Assembly (NCBI RefSeq): GCF_030128875.1
Contig: NZ_CP124620.1
Span: 2,356,001-2,420,000, forward strand
DNA length: 64,000 bases
Direction of reading: 5' to 3'
DNA from: Stenotrophomonas sp. BIO128-Bstrain
GTDB taxonomy: Bacteria > Pseudomonadota > Gammaproteobacteria > Xanthomonadales > Xanthomonadaceae
This document shows, in pieces, positions 34,746 through 40,056 of this stretch. Made by a program: the position numbers and the translations under genes. Position 1 is the first letter of the stretch. Every line of letters begins with the position of its first letter. The notes beneath the pieces are model-generated. The model made no database searches, was not told the origin of the DNA, and was given only the letters and a program-made list of their open reading frames with translations.

Positions 34746-36125
34746 TCATCGTCGACAACGCTCGATCAGGTTCAACAACGGCCCGGTCATTGCGGTGGTC
34801 ACCAGCGCCATGATCACCAGCACGGCGAACAGGCGGTCGCCAAGGAAGCCCAGTTCGTAGCCCAGGTTGAGCACGATCAGCTCCATCAGGCCACGGGTGT
34901 TCATCAGCGCACCCAGTCTCCACGCGTCATGGTTGTCCATGCCGGCACTGCGCGCTGCACTCCAGGTGCCGATCAGCTTGCCCAGCGTGGCGACCACGAT
35001 CACGATCAGGCACAGCACCAGGTCGCTGGCCTGCAGGGCGTCGGCGCGCATGCGCAGGCCGGTCATGGCGAAGAACAACGGCAACAGCAGCGTGACGGCG
35101 AACGGCTCCACGCGCTCGGCCACGGTGTGCCGCAGCGTCGCGTTGCCGGACACCGCGACGCCGGCCGCGAACGCGCCGAACAGCGCATGGATGCCCAGCA
35201 TCTCGGTGACCAGCGCGCAGCCCAGCGCCATCAGCAACATGATCAGCAGCCAGCGTCCTTCCTGGCCCGGTGCGATCACCAGGCGCGAGAACCACGGCCG
35301 CACCACCCCCAGCATCAGTGCGACGAAGGCGACCACGCAGACCAGGTTGATCGTGGCCGGCACCCAGCCCTGCGACTGCGCGGCGGCCACGATCAGCGCC
35401 AGCAGGCACCACGCGGTGGCATCGCCGAGGGCGGCGCAGGCGATCGCGGTCTGGCCCAGCGGTGTACCGGTCAAGCCGCGGTCGGCGAGGATGCGCAGCA
35501 GCACCGGAAAGGCCGTGATGCTCAATGAAATACCGACGAACAGGGCGAAACCGGTGAAGCCCACGCCGGGCGGTGCGTGCGCGCCATACAGCCAGATCGC
35601 CAGCAGCACGCCGAGCACGAAGGGCACGGCGATGCCGGCGTGGCTGACCACGAAAGCGAAACGACGCCGCCCTCGCAATCCGCCCAGATCCAGTTCCGCC
35701 CCCGCCACCAGCAGGAACATCAGCACGCCAAGCTGGCTGAGCAAGCCGAGCGAGCCGAGGGAGGCGGCCGGGAACAGCACGCCATGCACCTGGGGCAGCA
35801 CGGCCCCAAGCACCAGCGGCCCCATCATCAGACCGGCCGCCATTTCCCCGATCACCCCGGGTTGACCCAGCCGGCGGAACAGCCACCCCGCACCCTTGGC
35901 CACCAGCAGCAGGACCAGCAACTGCAGCAGGAACAGACCGAGCGGCGCATGCAGGTGCGCGGCCCAGTCGGCCCCCAGCGACGCCTCGGCACGGGCCACC
36001 TGTGCCGAGACGGCCGGACCGGCAAACCGTGCCAGGCCCAGGCCGATCAACAGGGGCAGCGCTACCCAGCCCAGATAACGCCAGGCCAGCCCGCTGCGGC
36101 GCATGCCGGTGGTGTCAGAGTCCAT
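34746..36125 (-). CDS. Cation/proton antiporter, CPA2 family
   Basis: A 459-residue inner-membrane exchanger with about 12-13 predicted helices. Family motifs are FRRLGQPGVIGEMAAGLMMGPLVLG, VLMFLLVAGAELDL and GISLSITAFPVLLRILADRGL. It ends soon after the last helix, with no cytoplasmic RCK/TrkA-N domain, unlike KefB/KefC. The transported ion (Na+ or K+) cannot be told. The N-terminus has an extra hydrophobic segment (residues 13-32) before the canonical domain. Confidence 0.9.
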   Translation of the reverse strand: MDSDTTGMRRSGLAWRYLGWVALPLLIGLGLARFAGPAVSAQVARAEASLGADWAAHLHAPLGLFLLQLLVLLLVAKGAGWLFRRLGQPGVIGEMAAGLMMGPLVLGAVLPQVHGVLFPAASLGSLGLLSQLGVLMFLLVAGAELDLGGLRGRRRFAFVVSHAGIAVPFVLGVLLAIWLYGAHAPPGVGFTGFALFVGISLSITAFPVLLRILADRGLTGTPLGQTAIACAALGDATAWCLLALIVAAAQSQGWVPATINLVCVVAFVALMLGVVRPWFSRLVIAPGQEGRWLLIMLLMALGCALVTEMLGIHALFGAFAAGVAVSGNATLRHTVAERVEPFAVTLLLPLFFAMTGLRMRADALQASDLVLCLIVIVVATLGKLIGTWSAARSAGMDNHDAWRLGALMNTRGLMELIVLNLGYELGFLGDRLFAVLVIMALVTTAMTGPLLNLIERCRR

Positions 36126-36213
36126 GATCGATCCCCATCGATTGAAGGGGCGATTCTACGGGCTGCACGCGCTGCCACACCACCGCGATCGACGCGGCGG
36201 CGTGGCACCTCGA

Positions 36214-37905
36214 TCAGGCCAGCGCCTGCTCGTGCACGCCGGCGATGGCGCGTCCGGAGGGATCGGCCATCGCCGCGAAGCTGGCATCCCAGGCAATGGC
36301 CGCCGGCGAGGAGCATGCGATCGACTTGCCACCCGGCACCGTTTCCGCCGCCGCCTGGGTCGGGAAGTACTGCTCGAACACGTGGCGGTAGAAGTAGGCT
36401 TCCTTGGTCTGCGGCGGGTTGTGCACGAAGCGCTTGTCCGCCGCGGCCATCACCCGGTCACTGACCTGGGCTTCGGCGTGCGCCTTGAGTCCGTCGATCC
36501 AGCCGTAGCCGACACCATCGCTGAACTGTTCCTTCTGGCGCCACAGGATCGAGTCCGGCAGGTAACCTTCGAAGGCCTCGCGCAGCACCGCCTTCTCGAT
36601 CCGGCGTGCACCGGCGGGGCCCTGCCCGACCATCTTGTGCCTGGCATCGATGCGCATCGCCACATCGAGGAACTCGCGGTCCAGGAACGGCACGCGCGGC
36701 TCCACGCCCCAGGCCATCATCGACTTGTTGGCGCGCAGGCAGTCGTAGTTGTTGAGCGCGTCCAGCTTGCGCACCAGTTCTTCATGGAACTCACGCGCGT
36801 TGGGGGCTTTGTGGAAGTAGAGGTAGCCACCGAAGATTTCGTCGCTGCCCTCGCCGGACAGCACCATCTTCACTCCCATCGCCTTGATCCGGCGGGCCAG
36901 CAGGAACATCGGGGTGGAGGCGCGGATCGTGGTGACGTCATAGGTTTCCACGTGGCGGATCACTTCCGGCAGTGCGTCCAGGCCTTCTTCGAAGGTGTAC
37001 TCGAAGCCGTGATGCACGGTGCCCAGTGCTTCGGCCGCGATCGCCGCGGCGGCCAGGTCGGGCGAGCCCTTCAGGCCGATCGCGAAAGAATGCAGGCGCG
37101 GCCACCACGCTTCGCTCTGGTCGCCATCCTCAACGCGGTGGCGGGCATAGCGTGCGGCCACCGCTGCCACCAGCGACGAATCCAGGCCGCCGGAGAGCAG
37201 CACGCCATAGGGCACATCGGTCATCAGCTGGCGGTGTACCGCGCGCTCGAAGGCCTCACGCAGTTCGACCCGGTCGGCCTCGACGCCTTCGACCGCGTCG
37301 TAGTCGCGCCACGGGCGCTCGTAGTAGCGGGTCAGGGTGTCGGTGGCGCTGTCGTACCAGTGGCCCGGCGGGAACTGCGCCGCATCGGCGCAGATGTCCA
37401 CCAGCGACTTCAGTTCGGAGGCCACCACCAGCCGGCCATCCTTGTCGTGGCCCCAGTACAGCGGCACCACGCCGATCGGATCACGGGCAATCAGCACGCG
37501 CTGCGCGGCACGGTCCCACAAGGCGAAGGCGAAGATGCCGTTGAGGCGGTTCAGGAACGAGGCCGGGCTGTCTTCGCGGTACAGGGCGTTGATCACCTCG
37601 CAGTCCGAGCCGGTCTGGAAGGCGTAGGGCTGGGCCAGCTCGGCCTTCAGTTCGCGGTGGTTGTAGATCTCGCCGTTGACCGCCAGCGCCAGGCCGCCGT
37701 CTTCGGAGAGCAGCGGCTGCGAACCGCCGGCCGGGTCCACGATGGCCAGGCGCTCGTGGACCAGGATGGCGCCGTCATCGACGTACACCCCGCTCCAGTC
37801 CGGGCCGCGATGGCGCTGGCGCTGCGAGAGGTCCAGCGCATGGCGGCGCAATGCGGTGAGGTCGTCGCCGGCCTGCAGGCCGAAAATACCGAAGATCGAA
37901 CACAT
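36214..37905 (-). CDS. asnB: Asparagine synthase (glutamine-hydrolysing) AsnB
   Basis: A 563-residue cytoplasmic enzyme that makes asparagine from aspartate, ATP and glutamine. The class II glutaminase domain begins with catalytic Cys2 (MCSIFGIFG) and includes RGPDWSG and AVNGEIYNH. The synthetase domain has the PP-loop SGGLDSS and SGEGSDEIFGGYLYFH. ATG 37905 was fixed by Cys2, which must follow Met, and by CAGGAG upstream. The reading frame is open further upstream across the attenuator, but that part is not AsnB. A leader ORF with six Asn codons and a terminator precede it. Confidence 0.95.
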   Translation of the reverse strand: MCSIFGIFGLQAGDDLTALRRHALDLSQRQRHRGPDWSGVYVDDGAILVHERLAIVDPAGGSQPLLSEDGGLALAVNGEIYNHRELKAELAQPYAFQTGSDCEVINALYREDSPASFLNRLNGIFAFALWDRAAQRVLIARDPIGVVPLYWGHDKDGRLVVASELKSLVDICADAAQFPPGHWYDSATDTLTRYYERPWRDYDAVEGVEADRVELREAFERAVHRQLMTDVPYGVLLSGGLDSSLVAAVAARYARHRVEDGDQSEAWWPRLHSFAIGLKGSPDLAAAAIAAEALGTVHHGFEYTFEEGLDALPEVIRHVETYDVTTIRASTPMFLLARRIKAMGVKMVLSGEGSDEIFGGYLYFHKAPNAREFHEELVRKLDALNNYDCLRANKSMMAWGVEPRVPFLDREFLDVAMRIDARHKMVGQGPAGARRIEKAVLREAFEGYLPDSILWRQKEQFSDGVGYGWIDGLKAHAEAQVSDRVMAAADKRFVHNPPQTKEAYFYRHVFEQYFPTQAAAETVPGGKSIACSSPAAIAWDASFAAMADPSGRAIAGVHEQALA

Positions 37906-37991
37906 GGGAACAGCTCCTGATGATGGGGGAATACACGTATTGCAGGCATTCGACCGGCCACCCAGGCCCGGAAGGGGTAAACCCGGGCCAC

Positions 37992-38020
37992 AAAAAAACC
38001 CGCATCGGTCGATGCGGGTT
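37992..38020 (-). terminator. Attenuator terminator in asnB leader
   Basis: On the minus strand AACCCGCATCG and CGATGCGGGTT form an 11-bp stem (38020-37997) followed by a run of seven T residues (37998-37992). It lies 86 bp before the asnB ATG and after a small ORF, so it must be passed for asnB to be expressed. Its 5' arm CCCGCATCG can alternatively pair with CGATGCGGG inside the leader ORF (plus-strand 38065-38073), which would be the antiterminator. Confidence 0.85.
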
Positions 38021-38047
38021 TTCTGGGGTCCGGGCGTATTGCTTGTA

Positions 38048-38146
38048 CTAGCCCTGGTCGCAGTCCCGCATCGGCCGCGCACGATTATTCGCGCGCAGAT
38101 TATTGCGGTTGGTATTGCTGACAGCGGTGGCCGGGAACGAGGACAT
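38048..38146 (-). CDS. Asn-rich leader peptide of asnB attenuator
   Basis: A 32-codon ORF ending TAG whose codons 11, 13, 15, 16, 20 and 21 are AAT or AAC; the residues read SNTNRNNLRANNR. Such control-codon clusters occur in his, leu, thr, ilv and phe leader peptides. A 9-bp hairpin (38075-38098) places two of the Asn codons (AATAAT) in its loop. The next segment (38065-38073) can pair with the terminator 5' arm. A ribosome stalled for lack of Asn-tRNA should favour the antiterminator. No clear ribosome-binding site is seen. TACGGT ends six bases before the ATG and could be a weak -10 for a leaderless start. The function is inferred. Confidence 0.8.
   Translation of the reverse strand: MSSFPATAVSNTNRNNLRANNRARPMRDCDQG
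38075..38098 (-). promoter_or_regulatory. Pause/pre-emptor hairpin in asnB leader
   Basis: On the minus strand CTGCGCGCG-AATAAT-CGTGCGCGG gives nine pairs (two G·U) with a six-base loop made of two Asn codons. It lies directly before the antiterminator segment. It may serve as the transcription-pause hairpin that couples RNA polymerase with the leader ribosome. Confidence 0.6.
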
Positions 38147-38273
38147 GGACCGACCGTAACCGGGTTTTGACGGCGGCGCAACTGTTGCGATGGCAACCAA
38201 ACAGGCCGCCGCGGACAACCCGGCGCTTCGGGGCCGCGCGATAATCACGGTCCTTCTGCACCATCCGGCTGGC

Positions 38274-39152
38274 ATGATCCCTCGCATTGGACGCATCGCT
38301 ACACGCCTGGGCGGCATCGCCCTGGCCCTTTCCCTGATTGCCTGCAGCAGCAGCCCTGCACGGACGCCTGCGAGCATCGTGCAGTCGGTCGAGGCCAAGG
38401 CGGCCGATGGCAGCTTCGACAGTGCCTGGGAGGCAGCCAGGACCTTTGAAACCTTCAACGACCCGCGCGCCGTGGGCTGGTACGAGCGTGCGGCAGCCGT
38501 TACCCCGTGGACCTTCCACAACCCGCAGGCCGAAGAGGCCCTGGGCAGGATCTGGACCCACGGTGAGCTGCTGCATGGCACCGGCCCGAACATCCGCCAG
38601 GGCACTGCCCTGCGCGCCTCACCGCGCAAGGCAGAGCGCTGGTATCGCGCCGCTGCCGAGCACGGCAACCCGATGGCGATGCTGATGCTGGCCAGGTTCC
38701 ATCGCGACCACGGTGACGCGGCCAGCGCGCTGCGCTGGGACCTGCGCGCGACGATCTACCATCACATGCCGTCCGAATCCTCGCGACTGCCACAGGCGAT
38801 CGCAGCGCGGCCGGATGGCACCGTGCATTCGCTGGTCGCCGAGATCCAGCGACGTGCGCAGCGTGGCGATGCCGACGCCCAGGTGGATCTGGGCGCCATG
38901 TACGAACTCGGCATGGGCCTGCCGCGCGATGGCGTGGAAGCGCTGCGCTGGTACCGGCTGGCGGCCGACCAGGGCAATGTGTACGGGCAGTATTTCAGCG
39001 GCCTGCTGCTGGGCCGTGGCCGCGCCGGCGTAACGCGCGATCTGGACGCAGCCGCCGGCTGGTTCGCGAAGGCGTCTGCGCAGAAGTTCTACCTGGCCGG
39101 GGAGACGTATTGGCGCGACCGGATCAAAGCCCCGTTCTGGACCTTCGACTGA
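38274..39152 (+). CDS. Sel1-repeat lipoprotein
   Basis: A 292-residue exported protein of unknown function. ATG 38274 begins a lipoprotein signal with lipobox LIAC (Cys21), followed by Ser/Pro-rich residues. Sel1-like (TPR-type) repeats are visible: AERWYRAAAEHGNPMAMLMLARF, DADAQVDLGAMYELGMGLPRDGVEALRWYRLAADQGN and YFSGLLLGRGRAG. Sel1 repeats usually mediate protein contacts. The gene diverges from the asnB leader with a 127-bp gap that must contain both promoters. It is followed by tandem SMAG repeats. Confidence 0.85.
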   Translation: MIPRIGRIATRLGGIALALSLIACSSSPARTPASIVQSVEAKAADGSFDSAWEAARTFETFNDPRAVGWYERAAAVTPWTFHNPQAEEALGRIWTHGELLHGTGPNIRQGTALRASPRKAERWYRAAAEHGNPMAMLMLARFHRDHGDAASALRWDLRATIYHHMPSESSRLPQAIAARPDGTVHSLVAEIQRRAQRGDADAQVDLGAMYELGMGLPRDGVEALRWYRLAADQGNVYGQYFSGLLLGRGRAGVTRDLDAAAGWFAKASAQKFYLAGETYWRDRIKAPFWTFD

Positions 39153-39160
39153 CAGGATAA

Positions 39161-39274
39161 CCACGCGGTAGAGCCGACCGTTGGTCGGCTGCACGTGTCG
39201 CCCCACGCGGTAGAGCCGACCGTTGGTCGGCTGCACGTGTCGCCCCACGTGTCTGCACCAACGGTCGGCTCTAC
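39161..39274. repeat. SMAG array: 42-bp tandem duplication plus inverted partial unit
   Basis: Two near-identical 42-bp units (39161-39202 and 39203-39244) each contain a GTAGAGCCGACC-GTT-GGTCGGCT palindrome and the linker GCACGTGTCGCC. A third, inverted and degenerate half ends at CTAC 39274. The exact period points to a recent local duplication. Confidence 0.85.
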
Positions 39275-39372
39275 GTCGGAGGGGACCACGTATGCGCGCC
39301 GGTGACGCTGTACACACTCCGCCGCTGCCTTCAAGACTGCCGCCTGCGCCGCCCATCACCGAGAATGGCCGC

Positions 39373-40056
39373 ATGACCACCGCCATTTTCCGCGACGACA
39401 CGCTCACCCGCGAGCGCATGCAGGCCATCATTGCCGCGCATCCGCGCGCGGCCGCCTTCGAGAACTGCACGTTCGATCACGGCGACTTCTCGCGGCTGGA
39501 CATGGATGGGTTCCAGTTCAACCAGTGCTCGGTCACGGGTGCGAACTGGCTGGCCGCCTCGCTGGAAGAAACCCAGTGGACGAAGTGCCGGGGCAGCCAG
39601 TGCGATTTCAGCTCGGCGCTGCTCAGCGACGCACGCTTCTCGCACTGCGATCTCAACAACAGTCATTGGCGCCGCGCGACGCTGTCCTCGGTGCGGTTTC
39701 AGGACTGCAAGCTGACCGGCGCGCATCTGCAGGAAGTGACCGGCTGGGCGCTGGAGTTCCGCGAGTGCCTGCTGGTCAGCGCCGACCTGCGCGGGATGTC
39801 ATTCCGCAAAGCGCAGCTGGACGGCATGGACTTTTCCGAAGCGGAGTTGTCCGGCTGCGATTTCCGCGATGCGGTGTTCAACGGCGGCAGCCTGCGCAAT
39901 GCACAGACGCGGCTGACGCGCTTCGAAGGTGCCGACCTGCGTGGCACCGACATCAGCGGGCTCAACGTGATGGACGCCAAGCTGTTCAAGAAGGCGGTGA
40001 TTTCGCAGCGCCAGGCGGCGGCCGCGTTGGCGTCGTTCGGGTTGATCGTGGCGTAA
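39373..40056 (+). CDS. Pentapeptide-repeat protein
   Basis: A 227-residue right-handed quadrilateral beta-helix protein. The repeats follow A(D/N)LXX and (C/S)XFXX patterns from about residue 25 to 205, for example CTFDHGDFSRLDMDGF, CDFSSALLSDARFSHCDLNNSHW and ADLRGTDISGL. Its last residues (ISQRQAAAALASFGLIVA) form a capping helix similar in style to McbG/Qnr proteins, which protect gyrase or topoisomerase IV. It lacks the two-residue-set loop layout I would need to call it Qnr, so topoisomerase protection is only a possibility. ATG 39373 gives a clean domain; the earlier in-frame opening is SMAG DNA. Confidence 0.82.
   Translation: MTTAIFRDDTLTRERMQAIIAAHPRAAAFENCTFDHGDFSRLDMDGFQFNQCSVTGANWLAASLEETQWTKCRGSQCDFSSALLSDARFSHCDLNNSHWRRATLSSVRFQDCKLTGAHLQEVTGWALEFRECLLVSADLRGMSFRKAQLDGMDFSEAELSGCDFRDAVFNGGSLRNAQTRLTRFEGADLRGTDISGLNVMDAKLFKKAVISQRQAAAALASFGLIVA

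Follow-up and report, generated by a model that had tools for sequence, protein, structure and literature searches.

The asnB gene of Stenotrophomonas sp. BIO128-Bstrain is very probably controlled by a ribosome-mediated transcription attenuator, in which translation of a short asparagine-rich leader peptide would sense charged tRNA-Asn. The locus lies in the 64,000-nt stretch of DNA analysed here (the window), to whose numbering all positions refer unless another source is named. An Asn-codon attenuator of asnB had been proposed in an earlier sequence-only reading of this DNA, and the anatomy of the locus, its conservation, the alternative pairing and the spacing of its parts all argue for that proposal. 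Our case is built on what the sequence and its comparison among relatives show: which codons are used, which pairings compete, how these elements are spaced, where a promoter-like element lies and which gene follows. New beyond that reading are a sister leader before ilvC, the prediction of a leaderless switch with two states, the occurrence in two families and a conserved distance of 14 nt between the last Asn codon and the antiterminator.

The leader ORF (Table 1) encodes MSSFPATAVSNTNRNNLRANNRARPMRDCDQG followed by a stop codon, and its 32 codons on the minus strand carry Asn at codons 11, 13, 15, 16, 20 and 21, exactly as first described. Codons of the regulated amino acid are thereby clustered in a short leader ORF, as is expected of an attenuator. 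The next gene had been called asnB, and its product indeed scores 868.6 bits against NF006949 (cut-off 499), so that the gene downstream makes the amino acid which the leader would sense, another feature of attenuators. On the upstream side, the neighbour of the leader is a Sel1-repeat ORF that runs divergently on the plus strand, which leaves asnB as the one evident gene for the leader to serve. Farther along the plus strand, a pentapeptide-repeat protein at 39223-40056 shows weak, sub-cut-off likeness to the Qnr-type and HetL families.

Table 1. Elements of the asnB leader region, in positions of the window.
Feature	Position	Strand	Basis or remark
Predicted -35 element TTGCGC	38176..38181	-	17-nt spacer to -10; sequence and leader comparison
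Predicted -10 element TACGGT	38153..38158	-	ends 6 nt before the leader ATG
Leader ORF	38048..38146	-	32 codons, ATG at 38146; read from sequence
First bases of the six Asn codons	38116, 38110, 38104, 38101, 38089, 38086	-	
9-bp hairpin, Asn codons 20-21 as loop	38075..38098	-	sequence; lineage-restricted
Putative antiterminator 5' strand (segment 2), CGGCCGATGCGGG	38065..38077	-	last ORF codons; pairing, folding, spacing
Putative antiterminator 3' strand (segment 3 and terminator loop), CCCGCATCGACCG	38006..38018	-	pairing, alignment
Intrinsic terminator hairpin and T-run	37992..38022	-	covariation, own scan, alignment
Shine-Dalgarno (SD) sequence of asnB, AGGAG	37918-37914	-	sequence
asnB, asparagine synthase B (controlled gene)	36214..37905	-	NF006949 equivalog match

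The regions upstream of asnB that were compared number 168, namely the window, 39 of 80 loci from named genomes and 128 of 129 loci from same-family genomes; the same-family loci were the best 30 and the next 100 of 357 matching genomes and lean to close relatives. The two sources overlap in some genomes, and over their last 300 nt the 168 regions reduce to 162 distinct ones. The set leaves out L018, L024 and L044, which are not Lysobacterales and in which no leader was found, as well as L093, whose leader has seven Asn per 12 codons. The 152 leaders used below leave out L064, L154 and L169, and thinning them to less than 90% similarity gave 79. Within 420 nt upstream of asnB, a short ORF with at least four Asn per 12 codons was found in 165 of the 168 regions, and the remaining three have three Asn per 12 codons. 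Under the same Asn criterion, 157 of the 162 distinct regions, the window included, have such an ORF within 300 nt, while chance gives it in 5 of 1560 random 500-nt segments from 400 kb of the window's genome, the one genome from which this null was drawn. None of the other amino acids is comparably raised against its own null in the regions upstream of asnB. In the window's genome, the pattern AAYAAYCGNGCGCGGCCGATGCGGG, with up to three mismatches allowed, occurs once, at this locus.

The start of the leader stands at a fixed distance from a promoter-like element. Among the 79 leaders, 72 have a TTG whose first base is at -35, -36 or -37 relative to the leader ATG, and 49 have a TANNNT starting at -12 (25 leaders) or -13 (24 leaders), the next commonest position holding 2. 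An SD-like sequence stands before the leader ORF in 11 of the 79 and ahead of asnB in 75. Because the distance from promoter to ATG is fixed, a leaderless transcript is predicted, with its 5' end on or adjoining the AUG of the leader. A transcription start downstream of the leader, the counter-case raised by the sequence-only reading, is disfavoured by the sequence, since the combination TTGNNN-N16..18-TANNNT precedes the leader ATG in 52 of 79 leaders, compared with a single one of the 79 in which it stands between the terminator and asnB. In a simple promoter and terminator scan, both the promoter and the terminator of the window went unreported; the terminator was seen instead by a dedicated scan and by alignment. 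The predicted -35 element is overlapped by an inverted repeat, GTTGC-CATC-GCAAC followed by GTTGC (38184-38197, 38176-38181). A similar motif occurs upstream of 30 of the 79 leaders, and it is possible that this repeat is the operator of a DNA-binding regulator.

The first reading had also pointed to a 9-bp hairpin with AATAAT in its loop. This hairpin, CTGCGCGCG-AATAAT-CGTGCGCGG (38098-38075), is present in the window, but it is not general in the family, since only 73.5% of its cells are paired in an alignment of 56 leaders, and a role as an essential element is therefore rejected. It possibly serves as a pause hairpin for RNA polymerase. It does not overlap segment 2, and since it stands clear of the antiterminator strand, the classical 1:2 protector hairpin is missing. 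The protector marks the classical three-hairpin form and not attenuation as such. A hairpin that is neither conserved nor masking the antiterminator makes the switch look two-state.

Two Asn codons of the window form the loop of this hairpin, and their surroundings are strongly conserved. It could be asked, on these grounds, whether the AAYAAY repeats are an RNA motif, a loop or protein-binding site through which an RNA-binding protein controls the terminator, rather than codons. The rate of change by codon position, 0.154, 0.156 and 0.161 for positions 1, 2 and 3 over the whole ORF, shows no clear third-position excess, which fits such a motif and rules out a general protein-coding constraint on the leader; selection is apparent only on the Asn codons and the frame. 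Nevertheless, we give this explanation very little credence, since both AAC (282) and AAT (249) are common in the 79 dereplicated leaders, and 60 of the 63 gaps in alignment columns 1-76 are multiples of three. Furthermore, several pairs of the hairpin are missing in about 20 of the 56 sequences while the Asn-rich ORF persists, the promoter-like element keeps its fixed distance to the ATG, and the second positive family retains Asn runs in different surroundings.

Between the leader and asnB lies an intrinsic terminator with a covarying stem and a T-run, as in known attenuators. It reads AAAACCCGCATCG-AC-CGATGCGGGTTTT (38022-37995), with seven T at 37998-37992. In the 56 aligned leaders, 96.6% of its cells are paired and four pairs are changed on both sides, and 0 of 500 shuffles reach its covariation values. 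A second GC-rich hairpin, GGCCCGGG-N9-CCGGGCC (37965-37989), follows directly after the T-run in the asnB 5' UTR and has no T tail of its own. The duplication claimed earlier was confirmed in the sequence, CGATGCGGG standing at 38073-38065 inside the ORF and recurring as the terminator 3' arm. The 5' arm of the terminator can accordingly take either copy as its partner, as had been proposed, and the antiterminator can be longer than the 9 bp implied by the repeat: CGGCCGATGCGGG can face CCCGCATCGRCCG over 13 positions, of which the window has 12 paired. From sequence and folding, this putative antiterminator and the terminator would be mutually exclusive, the 5' strand lying in the path of the ribosome.

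Over its 13 positions, the antiterminator has 90.5% of cells paired in the same alignment. Its covariation score of 0.031 is equalled by 11 of 500 shuffles, and one pair is changed on both sides, a count that 433 of 500 also attain. The antiterminator is nearly invariant within the family, so that covariation is not decisive there. Between lineages, segments 2 and 3 are seen to change together when their sequences are compared. In the 79 leaders, the pairing of each segment 2 with its own segment 3 averages -19.6 kcal/mol versus -16.8 with swapped partners (0 of 10000 permutations), a difference to which common ancestry can contribute; for the 33 leaders without GATGCGG, the own pairing averages -18.4, again with 0 of 10000 permutations. 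Compensated examples are found in L021 (GGCCTGC / GCAGGCC) and L193 (GCCCGT / ACGGGC). Compared with shuffled leaders, the duplex of segments 2 and 3 has a median z of -3.6 over 159 distinct sequences. A weak duplex, with z above -2, is seen in 30 of the 159, Lysobacter and Rhodanobacter-type leaders among them, and the duplexes of L019 (z +0.7) and L064 are worse than their shuffles.

The terminator is strong and is predicted by folding to form in the complete, unoccupied transcript, as it would if it were constitutive and closed, say, a transcript arriving from upstream, with asnB having a promoter of its own and the Asn ORF being incidental. We hold this explanation to be slightly less probable still than an RNA motif, because the divergent upstream gene leaves no evident transcript for the terminator to end, the promoter-like pair between terminator and asnB is confined to the one leader noted above, and segments 2 and 3 vary in concert from one lineage to another.

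Attenuation by a translating ribosome, the reading we prefer, is further suggested by the geometry of the leader. From the start of the last Asn codon to the first paired base of segment 2, the distance is 14 nt in 115 of the 152 leaders. With the last Asn codon in the A site, the front edge of the ribosome presumably lies just before segment 2. For folding, transcripts were cut at the end of segment 3 and the bases covered by a ribosome were forced to be unpaired. More than half of the pairs between segments 2 and 3 were formed in 141 of the 152 leaders with no ribosome, in 145, 145 and 139 with a ribosome on the first, middle and last Asn codon, respectively, and in 30 with a ribosome at the stop codon. 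In the window, the predicted number of these pairs falls from 8.0 with a stalled ribosome to 1.7 with a ribosome at the stop. The stop codon of those 30 leaders comes a few codons later; many are Stenotrophomonas types ending in DCALGR, and there are others. In the model, a ribosome parked at their stop codon misses segment 2, and the effect must then come from its passage. The pairing of segments 2 and 3 without a ribosome in 141 of 152 leaders implies that the untranslated state favours read-through. In classical attenuators that are left untranslated, a protector hairpin hides segment 2; the Asn leader has no such hairpin.

The switch would work as follows. Transcription would begin on the leader AUG or beside it, with immediate loading of a ribosome at the 5' end. 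When Asn-tRNA is scarce, the ribosome would stall on the Asn codons, and a stall on the last one would halt it just short of segment 2. Segment 2 could then capture segment 3 as it emerges, the terminator would be blocked, and RNA polymerase would read into asnB, giving read-through on asparagine starvation. With ample Asn-tRNA, the ribosome would cross segment 2 to the stop codon, segment 3 would be freed and the terminator would form. An action in trans of the leader peptide, or of the short RNA left by termination, with attenuation of asnB as a secondary matter, has a parallel in the trans-acting attenuator peptide peTrpL reported for Sinorhizobium (PMC7298713, in the portion available) and is as improbable as a constitutive terminator, seeing that peptide ends and lengths differ among genera while codon-antiterminator spacing and pairing are kept.

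In sequence comparison, the predicted layout is recurrent before asnB in the Xanthomonadaceae and Rhodanobacteraceae samples. It was found in Stenotrophomonas, Xanthomonas, Pseudoxanthomonas, Luteimonas, Lysobacter and Thermomonas, and also in Arenimonas, Rhodanobacter, Dyella, Frateuria and Fulvimonas. In the homologous regions, the Asn codons are retained, as is a second copy with which the terminator arm could pair, and so the layout passes the comparison that the earlier reading had proposed. One family of the order (f12), taken to be Rhodanobacteraceae from the likeness of its leaders, has the leader in 10 of 14 members; the AsnB of the four members without it (L221, L228, L249, L253) starts differently (e.g. 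MCGFVAVLDP). Two genomes of family f1 (L213, L214), whose AsnB closely resembles that of L071, also have no leader; in both positive families, members that bear another type of AsnB go without it. In the other sampled families of the order, 1 of 34 has a leader (f4 0/1, f5 0/1, f10 0/1, f9 0/9, f7 1/22), and one of the 22 f7 loci has just 95 nt of upstream DNA. In the f7 case, L224, the Asn-rich leader MFAIYNTINTTNNRLLRSAGSF stands isolated ahead of asnB and is accompanied by a T-tailed hairpin; it is possibly an ancestral remnant or of independent origin.

Beyond the two families, the AsnB loci L046-L083, which are not part of the 168 regions, fall below four Asn per 12 codons in 36 of 38 cases. 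The two above this cut, L051 and L075, had no terminator in the scan and were taken as chance. L064 passed a laxer Asn cut but was rejected on its duplex, and L068, under the cut, shows the same layout by eye. A covariance model run with strict filters against 274 genomes of the class exceeded 45 bits in three genomes of its own family only. Its best class-wide match outside that family, judged from the ORF list only, had 40.1 bits; distant forms may escape the model, which was derived from a single family.

Of 60 family genomes, 58, that of the window among them, have an asparaginyl-tRNA synthetase (AsnRS) scoring above the cut-off, and in the window's genome no match was found for gatC / GatC or for asnA / AsnA. 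With AsnRS present and GatC and AsnA unmatched, the charging of tRNA-Asn should hinge on free asparagine made by AsnB. Another, partial relative of AsnB is located at 952612-953814 of the same genome.

Weaker matches of the Asn-leader model elsewhere were followed in 15 stretches. One is the asnB leader, and the other 14 have Leu, Val and Ile codons in the leader, e.g. LLVLVLITQPTGAGRTGV, ahead of a gene which we take, from its sequence, to be that of ketol-acid reductoisomerase (ilvC). The ilvC leader of the window's genome lies outside the window (G000:C1:159150-159274, minus strand); the set from this genome and its relatives comprises L310-L317 and L319-L324. By eye, these leaders have a promoter-like sequence with the ATG directly behind it, a strong T-tailed terminator with matching arms, and, within the last ORF codons, an antiterminator strand, GGTGCGGG being one example; apparently, the ilvC leader is leaderless too. 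The two leaders share their build, whereas the codons (Leu, Val and Ile) and the leader sequence differ. Given the like build of the ilvC leaders, the local design to which the Asn leader belongs has at least two leaders. On balance, we lean towards a stripped-down design spread through the Xanthomonadaceae/Rhodanobacteraceae lineage, with a leaderless ORF, no protector and two states, ON by default and OFF by passage of the ribosome, of which the asnB version would be the first Asn attenuator and the ilvC version, so far from Xanthomonadaceae, a branched-chain one.

Classical leader-peptide attenuators are those of the enterobacterial trp, his, leu, thr, ilv and phe operons, Rfam RF00506 and RF00514 among them. 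Like them, the Asn leader has an ORF with codons of the end product and a putative antiterminator whose formation would prevent that of an intrinsic terminator, and it is followed by a biosynthetic gene. It differs from them in its Asn codons, in mostly having no Shine-Dalgarno sequence and a predicted leaderless start, in a segment 2 without a protector hairpin, and in matching no Rfam family at gathering score. The Rfam Thr_leader reached 21.3 bits against a gathering score of 55, over the terminator part only, and was rejected; His_leader has no match in the window's genome. In the T-box leaders of Firmicutes amino-acid genes, the RNA binds tRNA directly. They likewise respond to the charging of a tRNA whose amino acid is served by the gene behind, as proposed here, but do so by that direct binding. 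Four Rfam matches up to E = 1 were obtained for 36000-40000, all of them partial and sub-threshold, and T-box is absent from them.

In full-text searches of an open library, no recognisable description of an Asn-codon attenuator was found; Vitreschak and others (2004) reportedly compared proteobacterial attenuators, and priority is not certain. The words 'asparagine' and 'asnB' are absent from the main text of PMC2965389 and PMC1262725. In Xanthomonas, the level of an asnB2 was unchanged in an sRNA test, according to PMC3771888. The mycobacterial leaderless polycysteine attenuators (Canestrari et al., 2020, via the review PMC9031893), as far as the accessible passages of that review describe them, resemble the Asn leader in a small ORF, leaderless there and predicted to be so here, in a run of a single amino acid and in attenuation of the following gene. 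They differ in sensing cysteine, in acting on downstream translation, with no intrinsic terminator named in those passages, and in belonging to Actinobacteria.

If this reading is true, asparagine joins the amino acids that are sensed through leader-peptide attenuation, and the control of AsnB among relatives in Xanthomonas, Stenotrophomonas, Lysobacter and Rhodanobacter would be accounted for. The conserved 14 nt from the sensor codon to the antiterminator make the geometry of the stalled ribosome directly testable. The locus would, furthermore, offer a compact model of leaderless attenuation with two states, in which RNA polymerase and the leading ribosome set out at the same time.
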